Part shown: one piece after another, positions 19,870-35,906 of the stretch
Layout of the letters: each line of letters begins with the position of its first letter
Position numbering within the stretch: position 1 is the first letter of the stretch
NCBI GenBank assembly: GCA_946411215.1
Contig: CAMKDH010000003.1
Span: 1 to 36,500 of the forward strand
Reading direction: 5' to 3'
DNA length: 36,500 nucleotides
From: an uncultured Treponema sp.
GTDB taxonomy: Bacteria > Spirochaetota > Spirochaetia > Treponematales > Treponemataceae
Notes under the pieces: generated by a model
What the model was told of the DNA's origin: nothing
Seen by the model: only the letters and a program-made list of their open reading frames with translations
Databases searched by the model: none
Made by a program: the position numbers and the translations under genes

Positions 19870-21996
19870 ATGAAAAAACAGTTGTCTGCATTTTTTATAA
19901 TTTTGTTTTCTCTTTTTTGTATATCCTGTGACAGTATACTTGCAGACAAGTTAAATGAAAAATTCAACTTAACCCCTCCAATATATCTTTCTTATAAAAC
20001 AGATTACGGAAAAGCGCCAAGCCGTGTTACAATTACAAAAGGCGATGTTATTACAGAAGAAATGCTTCCTTCTGTTGCGTACGTAAACAATAACGGTTCA
20101 TCGTATTATTACTATGACGGCCAATACTATTATTATGATGATGACGAAAAAACCTTTGTGGGCTGGTATTATGATGATCAGTATACACAGGAAGTTCATG
20201 TTGGCGATGTTATTGAAGGTGCTTTAACGTTGTATGCCAAATGGTCAGATTCCTATGTGTATGTATATTATAATTTTTATTCAGATTATGGATACTATTC
20301 TCACTCGGATCGGATAAAGGTTGGTACAAAGCTTTCTTCTGATAACTGGTATTATCCTAAATATGACTTTTCAAGCGATTATGAATTCACTGGCTGGTAT
20401 TTAGATGTGGGGTACCAGACCTCCGCTGAAGGTTATGTTGTAACATCTGATATATACTTATATGCAAGTCTTTATCCAAAATATTATTATATAGATTATG
20501 TTACTTCATATTATTGTGACCCGTTGCCACAGGGAGCTGTACGTCGCGGCGAAACGCTAAGTTCATCTGAGCTTCCAACTCTTTATCCATATTCAGAGTA
20601 TGATAATATGGAATTTGAAGGCTGGTATTATGGCTCTGCTTGTGAAGACAGAGCAAATGTAGGTGATGAAGTAACAGGCAATATTACACTTTATGCAAAT
20701 TTTGTGCCAAGATATTATACAATTACGTATGAAACTTTTGGATGGGCAACTACTCCTGAAGACAGGATTTTATATAAGGGTGAGGAATTTACTTCATCAT
20801 ATCTTCCAGATCTAGTTTCAACGTATAATTCCATGAGATTTTTGGGATGGTATTTTGATTCTGAATGTGAGGTGTATCCTGCAAATGCGGGACAGATTAT
20901 AACTAGTGATACACGTTTATTTGCAAAATGGGAAACTATACCATCAACAAATATAGTAGAATATTGGCTTTATGATTTTGATGTATCAGACGAGTGTATG
21001 ATTTTGAATGAATATACTCACCTGGATGATGGCGGTGAATATTCTACTCCATCATATTTTGCAAATGAATTTTACAGGCAGGTAGGTGACGATTACGCAT
21101 TTTATGAGAGTTATACTTTTGATGGAGTAGAGTATTGTAATGTTAGCGTGTATAGAAACCTGTATTGTCATACTTTTGTTAGCGCCGAAAATTTGTGGAA
21201 GGTTCTTGAAAAATTTCCTATATTCCCGGATACGTCCCAATTTCAAAATGCTGTAAGTGTAGCAATAAACGATGTTAATCCAGATATGTCTGTGGTTGCT
21301 TCTGCAATTGCAGATCATAATAGAATGCAAAATTATTTAAGATTGAATTTAAGCAATTGTATCGAATTAACAGAGATTCCTGATAATTGTTTCGCGAATG
21401 AATTTTACTTAAAAGCAATTGTTCTGCCTGAATCTATTCAGACTATTGGAGAGGCTGCATTTAAATACTGTTCTGCATTGGAAGATACAGGCATTCTTTG
21501 GCAGAATTTAACAACAATTGGTGAAAGTGCTTATGAATATTCAGGACTTAAATATATAGAATTACATCGTTGTAATAGTCTTACAATAATTCCAAAAAAT
21601 ATGTTGGCCGGATGTTCTGCTTTAGAGACTGTTTTACTGCCTGAATCAATTCAAACTATTGGAGAAAATGCATTCCAGTCTTGTCAAAATCTTAGCAGCA
21701 TTCAGATTCCTCGTTATGTTACTCAAATAGGTGAACGGGCTTTTAGTGATTGCCTGCAATTAACCGAAATCGAAATTCCAAATGGTGTTTCAACAATCCC
21801 TCAGTATTGTTTTTATAATGATACTTCACTTAAGACAGTAATACTTCCTTCAACAATTACTTTGATAGAAAACTTGTCTTTCTATAATTGCCCTCTTGAA
21901 AATGTTTATTTCTATGGAACTGAATCCCAAAAAGATGGCATTACAAATTACGACACAACAATTTCTTCAGTTAATTGGGATTGTAATTATCATTAA
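19870..21996 (+). CDS. Lipoprotein with InlB-type repeats and BspA-like leucine-rich repeats
   Basis: LFCISCDS lipobox; FVGWYYDDQYTQEVHVGDVIEGALTLYAKW repeats; LLPESIQTIGENAFQSCQNLSSIQIPRYVTQIGERAFSDC LRRs. Confidence 0.9.
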   Translation: MKKQLSAFFIILFSLFCISCDSILADKLNEKFNLTPPIYLSYKTDYGKAPSRVTITKGDVITEEMLPSVAYVNNNGSSYYYYDGQYYYYDDDEKTFVGWYYDDQYTQEVHVGDVIEGALTLYAKWSDSYVYVYYNFYSDYGYYSHSDRIKVGTKLSSDNWYYPKYDFSSDYEFTGWYLDVGYQTSAEGYVVTSDIYLYASLYPKYYYIDYVTSYYCDPLPQGAVRRGETLSSSELPTLYPYSEYDNMEFEGWYYGSACEDRANVGDEVTGNITLYANFVPRYYTITYETFGWATTPEDRILYKGEEFTSSYLPDLVSTYNSMRFLGWYFDSECEVYPANAGQIITSDTRLFAKWETIPSTNIVEYWLYDFDVSDECMILNEYTHLDDGGEYSTPSYFANEFYRQVGDDYAFYESYTFDGVEYCNVSVYRNLYCHTFVSAENLWKVLEKFPIFPDTSQFQNAVSVAINDVNPDMSVVASAIADHNRMQNYLRLNLSNCIELTEIPDNCFANEFYLKAIVLPESIQTIGEAAFKYCSALEDTGILWQNLTTIGESAYEYSGLKYIELHRCNSLTIIPKNMLAGCSALETVLLPESIQTIGENAFQSCQNLSSIQIPRYVTQIGERAFSDCLQLTEIEIPNGVSTIPQYCFYNDTSLKTVILPSTITLIENLSFYNCPLENVYFYGTESQKDGITNYDTTISSVNWDCNYH

Positions 21997-22053: not shown

Positions 22054-25000
22054 ATGACACACTCTACTCATTTATTTTCAAAAATCACAACATCCATTTG
22101 CATGTTTGCTTTTTTCCTGGTTTTTGCAGCATGTAGTCCTCAGACAATCCAGTTACAGCCTGAAGAAATTGAAGTTAGTTATACTGTTGAACACTGGCAG
22201 CAGAATGTTAGCGGAAACGGCTACGGAAATGAACCTGTTCTTACAGAAGTTTTATCAGGAATGACAGGTTCTTTCACAAATGCCATGACTAAGAATTATG
22301 AAGGCTTTGAAGCCAGAAATTTTGATCAGATAAAGCTTGCACGAGACACTACAACAATAATCAAAATTTATTATGACAGAAAATCAATCGAATATACCTT
22401 TGACGCAGGTGAAGGAAAGTTTGTCCACGGCGAATCAACCAAAACAGTAACCGGCCTTTATGGCGCCAGCGTTACCGCTCCTGATAATCCCCAGAAAGAG
22501 GGGTTTGATTTCGTTGTCTGGGATGAAACAGTTCCAGAAACTTTCGGCGCAGAGAATAAAACTTTTACTGCGTCATGGACACAAAAAACTTCTCAGGGTG
22601 AAGATGAACAGGGAGAAGGACAGGGAGAAAATCCTGAAAATCAAGGGGAAAATCCTGAACAGAATCAACAGACAACTGCAAGCTATACTGTAGAACATCA
22701 TCAGCAGAAAACAACCGGAGATGGATATACAACAATTTGGGATGATACAGAAGAAAAGACGGGAACTATAGGTGCACAGACTTCTGCCACTGCAAAAACT
22801 TACACAGGATTCACAGCAAAAACAATCAAACAAGAAACTATCGCTGAGGATGGAAGTACTGTTGTAATAATTGAATATGACAGAAATATAATTACTTACA
22901 CTTTTAATGCCGGAGACGGAATGTTCGATGATAATAATGCAGAAAAAACTGTAAGCGGCCGTTATGATACGAGTGTTTCTTTTACATCAGAACCATCTCG
23001 GCTAGGATATGAATTTAATAAATGGGATAAAACAATCCCACCTTACTTTGGTACAGAAAATCTTACTTTTAATGCATTATGGTATCGTTCTGATTCAAGA
23101 TATACTGTAGAACATTATCTTCAGGATCTTGAAGGTGATGGATATACTATTCAATCAAGTGATACTGAACATACACGTACTGGATTAACAGATACTATGA
23201 CAGAAGTTCGTCCAGGACAATATACAGGTTTTACTGCAAAAACAATCGAACAGAAAAAAATTGCTGCTGATGGAAGTACTGTTGTAAAGGTTTATTATGA
23301 TAGAGATATTATTACATATACCTTTGAAGATGACCTGGATTTCACAGATGATATTGTAATAAGCGGTCGTTACGGGGCAACTGTTCCTATTCCTGACATG
23401 GCAACCACGGGGTATGATTTTGGACATTGGCTTGGATTTGTTGATCCACCTGATACTTTTGGAACATATAATAACACGTTTAAAGCTATAACGGATCCAA
23501 GATCCGATACTCTAGTTACAATAAAATATTTCAAGCAAATAATTACAGGTAATACGGATGTAGTTTATACTGTTGATGAGATAAAACAAGAGAAAAAAAC
23601 ATCTGGATTTACATTAAATTCTAGTTTTTATCTAAAAGATTGTGATAATGATTCTGAATATAAAGATTATGAATATAGTCATGAAGATGGAGATGACCAA
23701 GTCAACCCTGATGGAAGTTCTGTTTTAAATATTTACTATAAACTTAAAACACTTACTTACAATTTTAATGCAAATGGTGGAAAATGGGGTGATTCTCAAG
23801 AAATTATGCCAATAAGTGGAACATTGGGCACTCGAGTTGTGGTTCCAGAAGATCCCGTTCGAGGTGGATATGAATTCTTAGGTTGGGATCGTGAAATCCC
23901 AGTAGTATTTGAACCTCTTATTGCTGGTTGGTATGTAATTGATATTTATGGAACATGGCAGGCAAGAGGAGATATTCGTTATAAAGTAGAACATTATCAG
24001 CAGAATCTGAGCGATAATGAATATACTCATGTATCAAATGAAGATGAAGATAGAACTGGTACAACAAATTCTTCTACAGAGGCCCGAGCAAATACTTACG
24101 AGGGCTTTACTGCAAAACCTTTTACTCAAGAAAAAATAGCTGGTGATGGTTCTACAGTAGTTAAAATCTTCTATGACAGAAATAATATAACCTATACCTT
24201 TAATCCTAACGGTGGAAGTTTGAATGGTTCTCCTCAGACTCAAACTCAGACTGTACGTTATGGAACTTTAGTTCCTGTTCCTCAGGCGCCTTCTTTAAAT
24301 GGCGATTGGACCTTTGACGGCTGGTACGAAGGTCAGTTTATTGCTCCTGAATATACTCCTTCTGCTACTAATACTAGAAATATTGATGTATATGCACACT
24401 GGAAATATACTCCAAAAAATGTTCTGGGTGGTGGTATAAGCTTTGATGGAACAACCTTTACATATACTGACGAAGTATATGTAATAGACCCTGCAAAAAC
24501 AGGTGAAAACATTACAGTAATACCTGGAACTAACAAAAATGGAGTATTTATAAATAACCGTACTACAAAATTAAGTCCATTTATTATGAGTAAATATGAA
24601 GTTACACAGGAGCTTTATACTGCAGTTATGACAGGTCAGACTGTTACAAAAGATGGTAAAACTTATGAACTCGATGCAGCTCCATTTAAATGTAAAACAA
24701 ATGAACATGCCGGTGATATCCAGAAATATCGCCCGGCAGACAATATCAACTGGTATGATGCCGTATACTTCTGTAATGCTCTTTCAGAAAAACTTGGACT
24801 TACAAAACCTTATGAAATAACTGATATTTTAGTTATTAATGGTCATATAGAACATGCAGATGTAACTCTTGTTCCTGGTGCAAACGGTTACCGTCTTCCA
24901 ACAGAAGCAGAATGGGAGTTTGCCGCACGCGGTGGAAATCCTTCTGACGAAACTAACTGGAATTACACTTATAGTGGAAGCGATGCTATTAATAAAGTAG

Positions 25001-25290
25001 GCTGGGCTAATGAAACCTCTGGAACTCACCAGGTTGGAAAAAAGGCTCCTAACTATCTTGGAATATATGATATGAGCGGAAACGTATATGAATGGTGTTA
25101 TGACTGGCAGGACGGAATTTACCAGGGAGAAGTTACTGATCCAACTGGAGGAACTCTGCAGAATGTAAAGGTTTTCCGTGGAGGTGGATACACTGATGAC
25201 GGATTATGTAGAGTCTGGCAAAGACAATATCAAAGACTTACCTTGAGATATCAAGAATCAGGTTTGCGACTTGTTCGTTCTGCCCAGTAA
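22054..25290 (+). CDS. Lipoprotein with InlB/MucBP-like repeats and C-terminal formylglycine-generating-enzyme (SUMF1) fold domain
   Basis: FLVFAACSPQ lipobox; repeated YTVEHYQQN...GFTAKTI...DGSTVVKIYYDRNIITYTFNAG; C-terminal MSKYEVTQELYTAVM...INWYDAVYFCNALSEKLGL...GYRLPTEAEWEFAARGG...DMSGNVYEWCYDW...VFRGGGY. Confidence 0.93.
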   Translation: MTHSTHLFSKITTSICMFAFFLVFAACSPQTIQLQPEEIEVSYTVEHWQQNVSGNGYGNEPVLTEVLSGMTGSFTNAMTKNYEGFEARNFDQIKLARDTTTIIKIYYDRKSIEYTFDAGEGKFVHGESTKTVTGLYGASVTAPDNPQKEGFDFVVWDETVPETFGAENKTFTASWTQKTSQGEDEQGEGQGENPENQGENPEQNQQTTASYTVEHHQQKTTGDGYTTIWDDTEEKTGTIGAQTSATAKTYTGFTAKTIKQETIAEDGSTVVIIEYDRNIITYTFNAGDGMFDDNNAEKTVSGRYDTSVSFTSEPSRLGYEFNKWDKTIPPYFGTENLTFNALWYRSDSRYTVEHYLQDLEGDGYTIQSSDTEHTRTGLTDTMTEVRPGQYTGFTAKTIEQKKIAADGSTVVKVYYDRDIITYTFEDDLDFTDDIVISGRYGATVPIPDMATTGYDFGHWLGFVDPPDTFGTYNNTFKAITDPRSDTLVTIKYFKQIITGNTDVVYTVDEIKQEKKTSGFTLNSSFYLKDCDNDSEYKDYEYSHEDGDDQVNPDGSSVLNIYYKLKTLTYNFNANGGKWGDSQEIMPISGTLGTRVVVPEDPVRGGYEFLGWDREIPVVFEPLIAGWYVIDIYGTWQARGDIRYKVEHYQQNLSDNEYTHVSNEDEDRTGTTNSSTEARANTYEGFTAKPFTQEKIAGDGSTVVKIFYDRNNITYTFNPNGGSLNGSPQTQTQTVRYGTLVPVPQAPSLNGDWTFDGWYEGQFIAPEYTPSATNTRNIDVYAHWKYTPKNVLGGGISFDGTTFTYTDEVYVIDPAKTGENITVIPGTNKNGVFINNRTTKLSPFIMSKYEVTQELYTAVMTGQTVTKDGKTYELDAAPFKCKTNEHAGDIQKYRPADNINWYDAVYFCNALSEKLGLTKPYEITDILVINGHIEHADVTLVPGANGYRLPTEAEWEFAARGGNPSDETNWNYTYSGSDAINKVGWANETSGTHQVGKKAPNYLGIYDMSGNVYEWCYDWQDGIYQGEVTDPTGGTLQNVKVFRGGGYTDDGLCRVWQRQYQRLTLRYQESGLRLVRSAQ

Positions 25291-28305: not shown

Positions 28306-28410
28306 AATTTTCTATTATACTATGGATTGGTGGTTTTTCAACTGTTTCTATGAGCATGTGGTCCCTGAGCCTGTCGAAGGGCCTTTTGTCATTGTCTGTT
28401 GACCTTTGTC

Positions 28411-28433
28411 ATTGTCGGGCTTGACCCGACAAT
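28411..28433. repeat. Small REP-like palindrome ATTGTCGGG-CTTGA-CCCGACAAT
   Basis: Perfect 9-bp inverted repeat; reverse complement matches 14313-14335 apart from a compensatory G-C to A-T pair. Confidence 0.75.
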
Positions 28434-28591
28434 CTTTTCTTTACAATTCATTTTTCCTATTGTAAAATTAACTATTAAATTAATTACACGGGGCCAAAAA
28501 TGAAAAACAAACTTTCTTTGCTTAAAACTACTATACTGTTGTTAGGGGGGGGCTGCTCGCGTTAAGTAGTCTTATTTCTTGTGATAATTTT

Positions 28592-31500
28592 TTGCGTTCA
28601 GATGATGTTAAGCGTGAAATTGAAGAGACAATTGCTTATAATAACGCAAAAGAAATTCCAGTTTTTATCCAAGCTCAGGAAGGTTCAGGTTCTACAGTTC
28701 CAAAAGACAATCATATTGCAAAAAAAGGTTATGCCTTTGAAATAAGTTTTTCAGAAAATCCTGCCTATAGCTTTATTAAATGGACAGCCGTTTCCAAAGA
28801 TGATAATTCCAAAGCAATTACAGATGGTGTAGAATTTGAAGATGCAACCGCTCTTAAAACTAAAGTAACAATTACTAATGATACTCAGGCAATTCAAATT
28901 ATTCCTGTCTGTACACAGAGAATTACTGTTTCTGGTGAACCAAGTCCTCGTTATGATCCTCTAGGAGTAAGCAGAGACAGAGCCATCACAGTAAGCTTTA
29001 CAAAACCTTTAAAAGAAACAAATTTTATTTTTTCCCAAAATGAAATTCCTGCTTCTGCACAAGTAAAACAGGATAATGCAGGAAACATATGGGCATATAC
29101 TTTAGAAGGACAAACATATTTAAAAAATATTTCAATAACAAATATAGATGACTATTCAATTGCAGAACATTTTACCTGTCCTGTAATTAACGGAAATCTT
29201 CTTACAATTGAAACAGACAAAACAAATCCGATATCTTTTAATTCCAGCGAAATCTTTAAAACGGTAAAAGTCACTTTAAGTAAAGATATTGTTGATATTG
29301 ATGGTATAAAGATGAACTCATCTAAAACCTGGAATTATCAGATAACCGAAGCAACTGATGAAAAAGCAACTGTAAATCTTACAAGCGTTGCAGCCGAAGG
29401 TTCTGTGTATCTGGCTGGAACAAAAGACTATTCAATTGGTCAAAAACTTTCACTTGCTTTTACAGAAGATGCTGATTATCAGTTCGTAAAGTGGGTTTAT
29501 GATAATTCCATTGTTTATATTGCGGAACCTTGTAGTGCAAATACAACAGCAACAATACTTGAAAAAACAACTCCAGAAAATCCTACTCAAATAAAGGCTG
29601 TCTGTGCTCCTCGTCTTAGAGTTACAGCTTTTAGTCCTATAAATAACAGTTCAAATCCTACGGTATGTAAAAATTCTTCTATAATAATTACTTTCAACCA
29701 CAATTTGTCTGATAATGCAGAAGATCTTTTACAGCTTCAGAATATTTCAATTGCTCTTGGAGGTTCCCCTGTAAATACCTGTTTCAAAGCTCCGGTTTTA
29801 CAAGATAATACAGTAACCTTTATTGCAGATAATTCGAATATGCTTTCTGTTCCTGCTGGTCAAACAAAAACAGTTACTGTTTCTATTCCTGCCGATTTTT
29901 ACTATAGACTTGATGATGAAAACAAAACCAAAATAACTTATGGTGCCAACGGCGTTTTGTTTGATTATAAAATTGATGAAACAACTCTTAATAAAGCAGA
30001 AATTACTTTCACAGCTGCAAGCGGTTCTGGTTCATTAACAAAAGCTTCCGGTACTAACCAATATTCAATAGGGCAGGAAGTACCAATTTCGTTTGAACCT
30101 GCAGCAGGCTGGAAATTCAACGGTTGGACTATTACCAGCGGAAATCAACCTGTTGAAGAATCAAAAATTTCAATAGCAGATAAAGATTCCCTTTCTACAA
30201 AACTTACAGTTTATGAAGCTCTACAAGGTGTAACGGTTACGGCTAAAACAAGTGAATGTCTTTCAGTTAGCTCTGTTAGTCCTCGCTTACAAAGCAATCC
30301 AAAGGATTCAGAAATTGTAATTACATTTAATAAAACTTTGGATGCTAATTGCAGTAGTTTGCTCGATAAAATTATTATTGATTCTTATGATGGAAAACTT
30401 GGAAATTATTACACACAACGAACTCTTTCCGATAAAACAATCACGATTAAAAATACAGTTCCCATTTCTGTTCCAAAAGGAAATCAAAAAATTATAACAG
30501 TAACAGTTCCTTCTGATTTTTATTATGTAAATGACGGTAACAAAATAAATCTTGAAGAAACATCTTTTAGTTTTGTTGTTGATTACACAACAATTGCAAA
30601 ATCAAAGGTTCATTATACGCTTCTTAATGGAGAAACTAATTCTACTTTTGCCGAAGGCATTTCAGGCGGAACTATAAATCACCAGTCTTACGAAGAATAT
30701 AATATTGGAGAGGAAGTTGCGCTTTCTTTTGAACCTGCAGCCGGATATCAGTTTTATACCTGGAAGCTTCTTGATTCTCAAGGAAATGATGTAATCAATC
30801 AGATATCTTATAAAGATACATTCAAAGCTACTGATAAACAGCCAACAGTTGTTATGAATGCGGCAGAGGAACTTTATATAAATGTAGTCTGCTATAAACG
30901 ACCTGTAATTTCTACCGCAACTGTAAGTCCATATAAAGAAAATCAGGCCGACGAAGTTCCAAAGAATACACCTATTATTCTTACCTTTGGACATGCAATA
31001 AATCCTGCAACAAAAGATGAAATTATTATAAATTATTCTGCAATATCAAATTTTCTGAAGTCTGATTATTTTACTACTTCTATAAGTAGTGATTATACAA
31101 CAATTACTTTGACTCCTAAAAAAATGCTGCCTGTTGACCATGCTTACGAAACTGTGACTGTAACTGTTCCTCACAATGACATTTATTATTCTGTTGCAGG
31201 TGGCGCACAAAAAATTACTCCAGCCGATTCTGATTTTACCTGGTCGTATAGAGTTAATTCTTCGACAATTACAAAAACAATTGTGCGAGTAGATTCTAGT
31301 GATGCAAAGGCGAACTCATTAACTGTAAATGGTGCAGTTATTTCAAGTGGTGCAACACAGGTTCTGAATGTAGAACAGAGTATGAATATTGAATATCCAT
31401 TGGAAGATGGGTATCTGTTCTGTGGTTGGAAAATTGTTCCTGCTACAAGCGGTTACACTGTAGTACCAAGCGGATATGTAAAAAGTGGTGATATAGAAGT

Positions 31501-34500
31501 AAAAATCGGTAACAAAACTTACTTTATATTACAGATACCTGATTCTGAGAATCATCCTGAAAAAGCTATAATAAAATCTAATGATGCAATTGCCAATGGT
31601 TCTGCCAATTATGCAATCACTGTTTCTGCAAAAGACTTCTTGATTCCAAAAGTGACTTCAAAATTACCTGAATATGTTTCAGCTGGAAAAGATTGCGATT
31701 CCGAAATCTGTATAGAATTTAATAAAGAAATGAATAAGGAAAATCTAAATCTGTATTCTACAGCAACTAATGCAGATAATCGTAATGCGACAATACAAAT
31801 TGTAGATGCTTCAAATCCAAACGAGCATTACGAAAGTTATTTTAATGCACCTGAATGGACAAATAATACTTTGAAAATCAAACCAAAAAAAGAAATACGA
31901 TCTCTTTTGTCTGGAGAAAGTGATTTAAAAAATATAAAAATTATATTTGATTATACCAAGATAAAAGATATTGACGGTATTGTCCTTAATAGCGATCCTT
32001 CGTGGATATATAGAATAAATTATGATATGGAGAAAATTGCCCCGGCTGTATCAGGCATGAAAGTTTCTAAGCCGCAGTTTGAACTTGCAAGACACCAGAC
32101 TTCTGATGGAAATTATGAATATTATGCCAAAGAAAAAAAATCTGCCTCAGATTTACAGGAATTATCAAACACGACTTTCACAAGTTTTGTTAACAATACT
32201 TATAAGCAAAACCATGTAGGTAATAAGATTTATTTTTCTGCAAGTGTGTCCGATTCTGGTTCAGGATACAAGGGATTAACTATAAAAGAAAAACGAATAA
32301 GAACAGTTGATAATGTTACTGTTTCTGAACCTTGTGCTGACTTTACATATCCAGCAACAAAAACTGTTTTTGCAAATGAGCCTTATGTTTTGCAATCGGA
32401 AAATGATGGTGTTATTCAGCTTGATTTTATCTTTGAAGATTATGCTCTAAATAACACAACTAAAACTTACTATGTAATTAGAGATACAGCACTTGATGCG
32501 GGTAGCGCAATAAAAAATCAAATGTATGGTTATTATACAACTGAAATTGGCCCTGATGGAGAACATCCTGGTGTGTTATCCTCTAAGGCTTTATATTACA
32601 AACTAAATTCGCAAGATGTTATTGCTTATTATACTGATGATAATGGCTATAGAACTGAACAGTTAAATTTTTATAGTTGTAAAGATATATATTTAACCAA
32701 TTATTCTTCACAATCTTCTACACAAACAATTACATATAAAGTGGAATATGGATATTCGAAAAATGACTTTATGACACAGGAAAACTCTGCAACTGCAACC
32801 TCTTCTATCACTGGATATTTTAATTTTACCCGAGATGTAACAAAAGATTGTTTTGTACGAATTTCTGCAATTGATGATGTAGGAAATTTTCAAAGTATAA
32901 TTCGAGTTATTCCTGCGAAAACCTCAATTTCCAATATGCAGAGAGATGGAAATTACATGAATGTATATCTGAATGGTATAGCATATAAAGATTTTAAAGT
33001 TACCGATTATGGTGCTAATAATTTTGATTATTTACTTGTTTATACATATCAAGCTGATGAAACTTCTACACCAACAGAATTTAGGGCAAGAATGTCTAGA
33101 AGTATGGGGGATATTGCTAATTTAGGGGGGTATCATAGTAGCGATAGATTTGCAATTACAAATACTGCTTTGGAAGTAGAAGATCAGCCTGATTTTTTTC
33201 CTGACGGAATATATAAATTCTATGTCCTGCCATGTTATTGCTATTCAGAAACTTCATTTTTTGGATGTCTTTCTGATCCTTATACCTTGTATTATAATTA
33301 TACTCCTCAAAATCAAGGTGGAGGAACAGATCCTGAATCTCCAAATCTGCCATCAAGTTTTACTTTAACGAATATTCAGCATCCTGTAAGTACTGGTTAT
33401 CATACTGCATCTGTAGAATTCCCTGAAGGATTTACTCCGTCTGCGAATTTTTCTTATGGAGTAAAATACAAAAAGCAGAATACTTCAAAATATGAATATG
33501 GAGAATTAAATTTTGGAACCCAAAGTGGCAGTAAATATGATGTATCTATTTATGCAAAAGATGCAAATGGAACAATATATGAACCAGATCCTGCTTATTC
33601 TGTTGAACTTGATGCTACTTATGATAATATACCCCCTTCTGTTAATGTAAAAAATTCCTGGAATTCTTTATTTTCTTCTACTCCGAATAAAATTCACCTG
33701 GGGAATTTTTCTTCTGTTGCAAACTCTATGCCTTCTGACACAGGTGGGGCTGGCATGTACGTCAATGAGGATGGTTTAATACAATTTGATTATTATCTCA
33801 TAAAAAAAGAAACTGCGGGATATTCTTCGCATGAAGAAATAACAAGAGATAAACTTGTAAATTTTCAAAAGCATACTTTTTGTTATACACCAGGAACAAC
33901 ACGTTTAGCATTGGATTGGGATTCTTTTTTGGAAGGCTATTATATTCTTGTACTGGATTTAAAAGATAACAATGATAATTCTGCACTATATAGTTATGTC
34001 GTTATGAATATTACAGAACCTGGAATACCAAAAATCTGGGTAGCCGATTCTAAAATGTATGTACAGGCCTTGAAAACACACTCCTCATATTCCGGTTATA
34101 TTTATAGACTACAAAATGATACATGGTCTAACCGTAGTGCTTTTGAAGGGCAGGCTATGACTAATAATGGAATGGATAATAGAGCTTATGGTTTTGGTAC
34201 TCCAAAATACTTTTTTAAATGCTCGGTTTATAATGGTGCAAAGAATTCTTTATATGCCTTTGTTTATCCTAACTATTTTGACCGATTAAATAAGGGTGAA
34301 AATGTTTCTTGTTCAAGCAAAGCGGTAATTCCTGGTTTGTCAGATTCATATCAGGTTTTCTATGATGCACCTTGTTTTGCGCATACAATGGCGTTCCCAA
34401 CAGAACTGCTTGCAGAAATTGACTCCAAGACAGATGCTGCCCTTGTATATGATACTACACTTGATAGAAAAACTGCCTATACCGCAGTTTGGGAAACAAA

Positions 34501-34681
34501 GGGTAGGGAATACGGTCTAAAACTATTGTATGGCGGTGAATCAGATGCAAACAATAGCTGGTTGCAGGGTAATACTACATATATTGCCCCTGTAAATGAG
34601 ATTCCTTCCGGCTTCTCCTATGTAACAGTTTTCCATTTTGCCGACGGAACCACAGCCATGAGCGACGTAAAGCAGAAGTAG
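28592..34681 (+). CDS. Giant repetitive surface protein (2029 aa in the open frame); probable lipoprotein whose start at 28500 is out of frame in this sequence
   Basis: Repeats such as SVSPRLQSNPKDSEIVITFNKTLD (Big_5-like) and YSIGQEVPISFEPAAGWKFNGW. Signal peptide MKNKLSLLKTTILLLGGG begins at 28500 and LLALSSLISCDN lipobox is in the downstream frame; the frames join at a G tract. Confidence 0.85.
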   Translation: MRSDDVKREIEETIAYNNAKEIPVFIQAQEGSGSTVPKDNHIAKKGYAFEISFSENPAYSFIKWTAVSKDDNSKAITDGVEFEDATALKTKVTITNDTQAIQIIPVCTQRITVSGEPSPRYDPLGVSRDRAITVSFTKPLKETNFIFSQNEIPASAQVKQDNAGNIWAYTLEGQTYLKNISITNIDDYSIAEHFTCPVINGNLLTIETDKTNPISFNSSEIFKTVKVTLSKDIVDIDGIKMNSSKTWNYQITEATDEKATVNLTSVAAEGSVYLAGTKDYSIGQKLSLAFTEDADYQFVKWVYDNSIVYIAEPCSANTTATILEKTTPENPTQIKAVCAPRLRVTAFSPINNSSNPTVCKNSSIIITFNHNLSDNAEDLLQLQNISIALGGSPVNTCFKAPVLQDNTVTFIADNSNMLSVPAGQTKTVTVSIPADFYYRLDDENKTKITYGANGVLFDYKIDETTLNKAEITFTAASGSGSLTKASGTNQYSIGQEVPISFEPAAGWKFNGWTITSGNQPVEESKISIADKDSLSTKLTVYEALQGVTVTAKTSECLSVSSVSPRLQSNPKDSEIVITFNKTLDANCSSLLDKIIIDSYDGKLGNYYTQRTLSDKTITIKNTVPISVPKGNQKIITVTVPSDFYYVNDGNKINLEETSFSFVVDYTTIAKSKVHYTLLNGETNSTFAEGISGGTINHQSYEEYNIGEEVALSFEPAAGYQFYTWKLLDSQGNDVINQISYKDTFKATDKQPTVVMNAAEELYINVVCYKRPVISTATVSPYKENQADEVPKNTPIILTFGHAINPATKDEIIINYSAISNFLKSDYFTTSISSDYTTITLTPKKMLPVDHAYETVTVTVPHNDIYYSVAGGAQKITPADSDFTWSYRVNSSTITKTIVRVDSSDAKANSLTVNGAVISSGATQVLNVEQSMNIEYPLEDGYLFCGWKIVPATSGYTVVPSGYVKSGDIEVKIGNKTYFILQIPDSENHPEKAIIKSNDAIANGSANYAITVSAKDFLIPKVTSKLPEYVSAGKDCDSEICIEFNKEMNKENLNLYSTATNADNRNATIQIVDASNPNEHYESYFNAPEWTNNTLKIKPKKEIRSLLSGESDLKNIKIIFDYTKIKDIDGIVLNSDPSWIYRINYDMEKIAPAVSGMKVSKPQFELARHQTSDGNYEYYAKEKKSASDLQELSNTTFTSFVNNTYKQNHVGNKIYFSASVSDSGSGYKGLTIKEKRIRTVDNVTVSEPCADFTYPATKTVFANEPYVLQSENDGVIQLDFIFEDYALNNTTKTYYVIRDTALDAGSAIKNQMYGYYTTEIGPDGEHPGVLSSKALYYKLNSQDVIAYYTDDNGYRTEQLNFYSCKDIYLTNYSSQSSTQTITYKVEYGYSKNDFMTQENSATATSSITGYFNFTRDVTKDCFVRISAIDDVGNFQSIIRVIPAKTSISNMQRDGNYMNVYLNGIAYKDFKVTDYGANNFDYLLVYTYQADETSTPTEFRARMSRSMGDIANLGGYHSSDRFAITNTALEVEDQPDFFPDGIYKFYVLPCYCYSETSFFGCLSDPYTLYYNYTPQNQGGGTDPESPNLPSSFTLTNIQHPVSTGYHTASVEFPEGFTPSANFSYGVKYKKQNTSKYEYGELNFGTQSGSKYDVSIYAKDANGTIYEPDPAYSVELDATYDNIPPSVNVKNSWNSLFSSTPNKIHLGNFSSVANSMPSDTGGAGMYVNEDGLIQFDYYLIKKETAGYSSHEEITRDKLVNFQKHTFCYTPGTTRLALDWDSFLEGYYILVLDLKDNNDNSALYSYVVMNITEPGIPKIWVADSKMYVQALKTHSSYSGYIYRLQNDTWSNRSAFEGQAMTNNGMDNRAYGFGTPKYFFKCSVYNGAKNSLYAFVYPNYFDRLNKGENVSCSSKAVIPGLSDSYQVFYDAPCFAHTMAFPTELLAEIDSKTDAALVYDTTLDRKTAYTAVWETKGREYGLKLLYGGESDANNSWLQGNTTYIAPVNEIPSGFSYVTVFHFADGTTAMSDVKQK

Positions 34682-35483: not shown

Positions 35484-35509
35484 TTGTTTTATCTCCTTTT
35501 TGATCCAAT

Positions 35510-35906
35510 TTACGTGAATTCCTCTTTGAAAGTGATAAACCTCATGTAATTGCAGATCCTATTCTGCTTCTACATCCAATTAATTACGTGACATTTTCTA
35601 CAGATTTTGTGAAACTCACGTAAAACCAAGCCCCTAATGAACATATCAGGTTAATGATTATGTCTATCAATTCATTAATTCCTCAAAATTACGTGAATAT
35701 TCCGTTGTCTCCAACAGAGTTCACGTAATTACAATTCCAATGCCTGTATTAAGTATTTCCAATTACGTGAGTTTCACTTTGAAAGTGTCAAAACTCACGT
35801 AAAACTCCTTGATTTGAAAATCAATACAGCTACTATTGAGTGTTTAAAAACTCCAATTGTCTTTGGTTACGTGAGTTCTCCTCCTGAATAAATCTTTCTC
35901 ACGTAA
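35510..35906. repeat. Array of five TTACGTGA-N24-TCACGTAA inverted-repeat units
   Basis: Units at 35510-35549, 35584-35623, 35689-35728, 35763-35802, 35867-35906; nine of ten arms exact (35542-35549 is TCATGTAA); inter-arm spacing exactly 24 bp in all five. Confidence 0.97.

Follow-up and report, generated by a model that had tools for sequence, protein, structure and literature searches.

Poly-G tracts in the signal-peptide region of a large lipoprotein family as probable on/off switches in rumen-type Treponema

Introduction

The start of a very large lipoprotein gene in an uncultured Treponema is split between two reading frames at a run of eight guanines (G8), which raises the question of whether the split is a sequencing artefact, a sign of gene decay or one state of a reversible switch. 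The window analysed in this study (a whole stretch of 36,500 nucleotides) is part of contig C3 of a 2.52-Mb metagenome-assembled genome (MAG) that is 75% complete. Two groups of known systems bear on the question. In Neisseria, pilC1 and pilC2 carry poly-G in the 5' part of the open reading frame (ORF) and undergo translational phase variation, and a gonococcal 'repetitive large surface lipoprotein' with G7/G8 has also been described (PMC5320596). In Treponema pallidum, the poly-G loci tprE/G/J, tprL and tp0126 act mainly through promoters, with tprL tract lengths of 7 to 11 varying in vivo (PMC7864442).

Results and Discussion

Organization of the locus

On the forward strand, translation from the ATG at 28500 gives the 21-residue peptide MKNKLSLLKTTILLLGGGCSR and ends at a TAA (28563-28565); this start-codon frame (28500-28565) represents the OFF state. 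The G8 tract (28545-28552) lies 45 nt into the frame, between the start codon and the lipobox. The downstream frame reads LLALSSLISC-DNFLRSDD, comprising the second half of a signal peptide (LLALSSLIS, 28553-28579), which has an in-frame counterpart in a G9 paralogue on contig C6, followed by the lipobox cysteine of L-I-S-C (28580-28582), which is mature residue 1 and opens a C-[DE]-N-F motif whose C, N and F are invariant in the family alignment. Thus, the complete lipoprotein signal of basic start, hydrophobic core and lipobox cysteine, as found in in-frame members such as those on C6 and C88, is present in the window gene only across two frames. On re-reading of coordinates and frames, the start codon, early stop, tract and out-of-frame lipobox described in the earlier note proved exact. 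The large ORF reported there also stands, but its 2029 residues count from a formal TTG at 28592, and the frame is really open for 2,051 codons, up to the TAG at 34679-34681; the mature lipoprotein accounts for 2,033 of these (28580-34681).

Upstream, a candidate sigma-70-type promoter (TTTACA-N17-TAAAAT, 28440-28468) was recognized from sequence, its 17-bp spacing being kept in the C6 paralogue, together with a candidate ribosome-binding site 6 nt 5' of the ATG (GGGG, 28490-28493; GGAG in the C6 paralogue). An intergenic repeat with a palindrome (CCTGAGCCTGTCGAAGGGCC and TGTCATTGTCGGGCTTGACCCGACAATC) at 28360-28445 recurs in more than 30 places in the MAG and looks REP-type. Family comparison identified a conserved DNA block around ACTATACT (28531-28544) adjoining the tract on its 5' side; ACTATAC is present in 29 of the 57 members with a tract, which it precedes, and in 6 of the 38 that lack one, and GTATAG follows the tract in 20 of 57 compared with none of the 38. 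These two motifs were considered as an inverted repeat forming a slippage-promoting hairpin, which is unsupported because just 6 of the 57 have both halves.

The encoded protein matches the divergent InlB B-repeat and Big_5 families (PF18998 and PF13205) above the curated Pfam cut-offs, and the AF2 model of mature residues 1-430 (pLDDT 88) displays an N-terminal helix followed by tandem beta domains, suggesting an elongated surface stalk. Because a sequence search of solved structures with the lipoprotein returned zero matches and a fold search with the model gave weak tandem Ig-like matches only (TM 0.1-0.2), no ligand can be named. Elsewhere in the window, two more large proteins with Listeria-Bacteroides repeats are encoded at 19870-21996 and 22054-25290, one of them with BspA-type leucine-rich repeats and one with a sulfatase-modifying-factor (FGE-like) domain. 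Past the gene downstream of the lipoprotein, TTACGTGA / TCACGTAA motifs of either orientation cluster within 400 bp (35500-35900).

Tract length and frame state

The G8 run is the sole such tract in the window, where shuffled windows expect 0.09. Across the whole 2.52-Mb assembly there are four tracts of at least eight guanines, each in the signal-peptide region of a member of one lipoprotein family: G8 in the window gene (C3; out of frame, OFF), G9 in the paralogues on C6 (MKHRNSLLKTTILLLGGGLLALTSLTSC-ENF) and C88 (both in frame, ON) and G10 in the paralogue on C86 (out of frame, OFF). A search with the window protein and a profile of the mature N-terminus found nine family loci in the MAG, and the chance that all four tracts would fall in about nine 90-nt signal regions is below 1e-14, as calculated from the MAG counts under random placement. 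A distant member (L284, G000:C6:19131-19535) has a 4,235-codon open frame and is tract-free and in frame.

The same association was observed across 95 family members, which are distinct by sequence only, such that a few may be one gene from two collections, and which derive mostly from MAG consensus contigs with one genome per species. The longest G run before the cysteine is bimodal, with 1-5 guanines in 38 members, 8-11 in 57 and 6-7 in none; when loci were retrieved on family membership instead of tract, runs of 1-5 outnumbered runs of 8-11 by 33 to 11, again with zero at 6-7. The reading frame is intact in 36 of the 38 tract-free members (2 out of frame) versus 24 of the 57 tract-bearing ones (33 out of frame; Fisher p=6e-8). 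Off-frame copies are therefore practically confined to tract bearers. Among 47 copies bearing the tract together with the C-[DE]-N-F layout, the frame is intact in 20 and shifted in 27, and the 44 of these with a clear ATG divide 20/14/10 over the three frames. Near-identical copies also differ in tract length (L089 G8 and L101 G9; L117 G9 and L118 G10; L079 G9 and L118 G10), these pairs being paralogues and orthologues within and between genomes, not one locus in two isolates.

These distributions bear directly on the possibility of an assembly or sequencing error, by which the true tract would be in frame and the gene always on. The window is a MAG contig and sequencing is known to be weak at homopolymers, yet a further 99 A/T runs of 6-8 and a G6 lie in the window's ORFs with the frames intact, which shows that homopolymers do not break the assembly in general. 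Combined with the contrast in frame state between tract-bearing and tract-free members, these A/T runs of up to 8 that keep frame form the main control against such error, which would also have to produce all three frames. Even with one wrong length, a G8-G11 run conserved at the same place would remain, and an error is consequently regarded as very improbable.

Gene decay, with the frameshift fixed in a dying pseudogene, would likewise account for the early frame interruption and for the numerous OFF copies, and its probability is rated marginally lower still. The downstream frame is open for more than 6 kb in the window gene and is also open in all 47 of the copies with tract and C-[DE]-N-F layout, and nearly all members without a tract are in frame. 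Against six relatives, the window ORF has a dN/dS of 0.16-0.27, pairwise values that average over time and do not date the OFF state, and it thus evolves under purifying selection. The tree built from 94 mature N-termini (148 columns, leaving many forks unresolved) was compared with 500 label shuffles. Tract presence is clustered on this tree, needing 22 changes where the shuffles gave 29.8 (none of the 500 had so few), whereas ON/OFF state is unclustered (20 changes versus 18.0 with shuffled labels), such that frame state is without phylogenetic memory. Programmed transcriptional or translational slippage, which would yield a fixed share of full-length protein from unchanged DNA, is about as improbable as the pseudogene, because although transcription could also slip on G8-G11 runs, it predicts one length and one offset, and lengths of 8 to 11 in all three frames with no phylogenetic pattern were found.

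With a probability of roughly 0.9, the G8 tract is interpreted from these sequence comparisons as a contingency-locus switch in which slipped-strand mispairing drives translational phase variation. During replication, the tract would gain or lose a G, with slippage as the presumed cause. One of the three frames would join the start codon to the lipobox, and a lipoprotein of approximately 2,000 residues would be exported and lipidated; in the two other frames translation would end within a few codons, after 21 in the window copy. The sequenced consensus is an OFF copy. With tract-bearing members beside fixed-ON ones, each cell would then display a random subset of lipoproteins. The proposal in the earlier note of poly-G phase variation of lipoprotein export is thus one that the comparison strongly supports, through the G9 and G10 copies in the same genome, the random frame of the 57 tract-bearing members and the near-identical copies that are one G apart. 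Its picture of a single frameshifted gene has to be widened; the reading as a switch holds, and the gene is one of a large paralogous family.

Distribution across the genus and beyond

A genus-wide scan for G8, 10 to 70 nt and TGYGANAAYTTY (C-[DE]-N-F) gave the 47 matches discussed above in 18 of 200 genomes, with 0 matches to the reversed pattern in all of them, and every matched tract is G8-G11. A stricter pattern applied over 84,980 species returned 35 stretches, 34 of which come from MAGs of Treponema or Spirochaetaceae. Many of these carry rumen or water-buffalo stomach labels, and on this basis the window organism is taken to be a rumen-type Treponema rather than T. pallidum. The single remaining stretch, from Bacteriovorax, had no match in the family profile scan and was taken as a chance hit. 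Overall, the lipoprotein family is paralogous and genus-wide in rumen treponemes, with many members tract-bearing and others fixed ON.

A second class of poly-G tract was detected in promoters. A scan of 196 genus genomes for TTGACA-G7+-TATWAT found about 65 sites in 38 genomes, with 0 in the control, and the poly-G spacers between the -35 TTGACA and the -10 TATAAT measure 14-22 with a mode of 18-19 (including loci L247-L276). Of 32 readable first genes at these sites, 23 are lipoproteins by rule and most others have a Sec-type start. Five relatives and the window's own genome together have 77 tracts of at least eight guanines; automatic calling, which misses several cases visible by eye, placed 27 of them, read in sense orientation, in lipoprotein signal peptides and 7 in promoter spacers (mirror control, 0 of 77). 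The assembly of the window genome itself has no promoter-type tract. One member of the window gene's lipoprotein family (L183) carries its tract in the promoter layout, so that a single family uses both arrangements.

Possible exchange of leaders between paralogues

The 145 nt before the cysteine are 80% identical between the C3 and C6 genes and their mature parts 53%, compared with 58% and 68%, respectively, for C3 and C51. In the same-genome pairs C3/C6, L122/L123 and L126/L108, the 5' 140 nt are 79-93% identical and the mature parts 53-60%; in L126 the longest run is only G5 and the gene is in frame. Leaders that are more alike than the mature parts, with the largest identity gaps among all pairs coming mostly from within one genome, suggest movement of leaders between paralogues. 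Tentatively, and at somewhat less than even odds, the switch may be an exchangeable module of promoter, ribosome-binding site, signal peptide and G tract that moves between paralogues by recombination.

Relation to known phase-variable systems

Because the window tract lies inside the reading frame, the nearest precedent is Neisseria pilC rather than T. pallidum, with a logic resembling pilC and Opa. As in pilC and in opa (CTTCT repeats), a simple repeat sits in the 5' coding part of a surface protein, where length changes shift the frame, and the opa genes, like the treponeme lipoproteins, form a multi-copy family. Unlike the Neisseria genes, those described here belong to another phylum with no known protein relationship, their tract falls between start codon and lipobox, and several tract copies per genome occur beside fixed-ON paralogues.

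The earlier note had drawn its precedent from T. pallidum, which fits as to genus name, repeat type and surface proteins. The fit does not extend to the mode of action, as the T. pallidum loci act mainly through promoters and the window tract is within the ORF downstream of a candidate promoter with a normal 17-bp spacer. Relatives of the window genome do have tracts placed as in tp0126, in the spacer between -35 and -10. The proteins also differ, being lipoproteins of commensals here versus porin-like Tpr/OmpW in T. pallidum. In the parts of their survey considered here, Staton et al. 2021 counted G/C homopolymeric tracts in cultivable treponemes including the rumen commensal T. ruminis, found the fewest in the commensal and linked tracts to pathogens (PMC8049484); compared with that portion of the survey, the few tracts of some commensals are here aimed at one lipoprotein family. 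A literature search, mostly outside subscription papers, returned no report on this lipoprotein family or on phase variation in rumen treponemes. The mechanism class is known, and the family and its setting in commensals are new.

Conclusions

Among treponemes, poly-G phase variation has been described in the syphilis agent, and such tracts have been regarded as a trait of pathogens. In uncultured rumen treponemes, a large lipoprotein family displays a switch of this kind in two layouts, and the tract-bearing members very probably act as on/off switches for the cell surface of a gut commensal. Surface exposure of these lipoproteins is presumed, and the benefit may be evasion of host antibody, phage or protists, or varied adhesion. 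If the reading of the leader as a mobile module is true, different large lipoproteins of one genome would gain or lose random on/off control. Random variation of the surface in harmless gut spirochaetes, too, becomes a testable idea, as does the question of whether host IgA, phages, protists or adhesion would be the driver.
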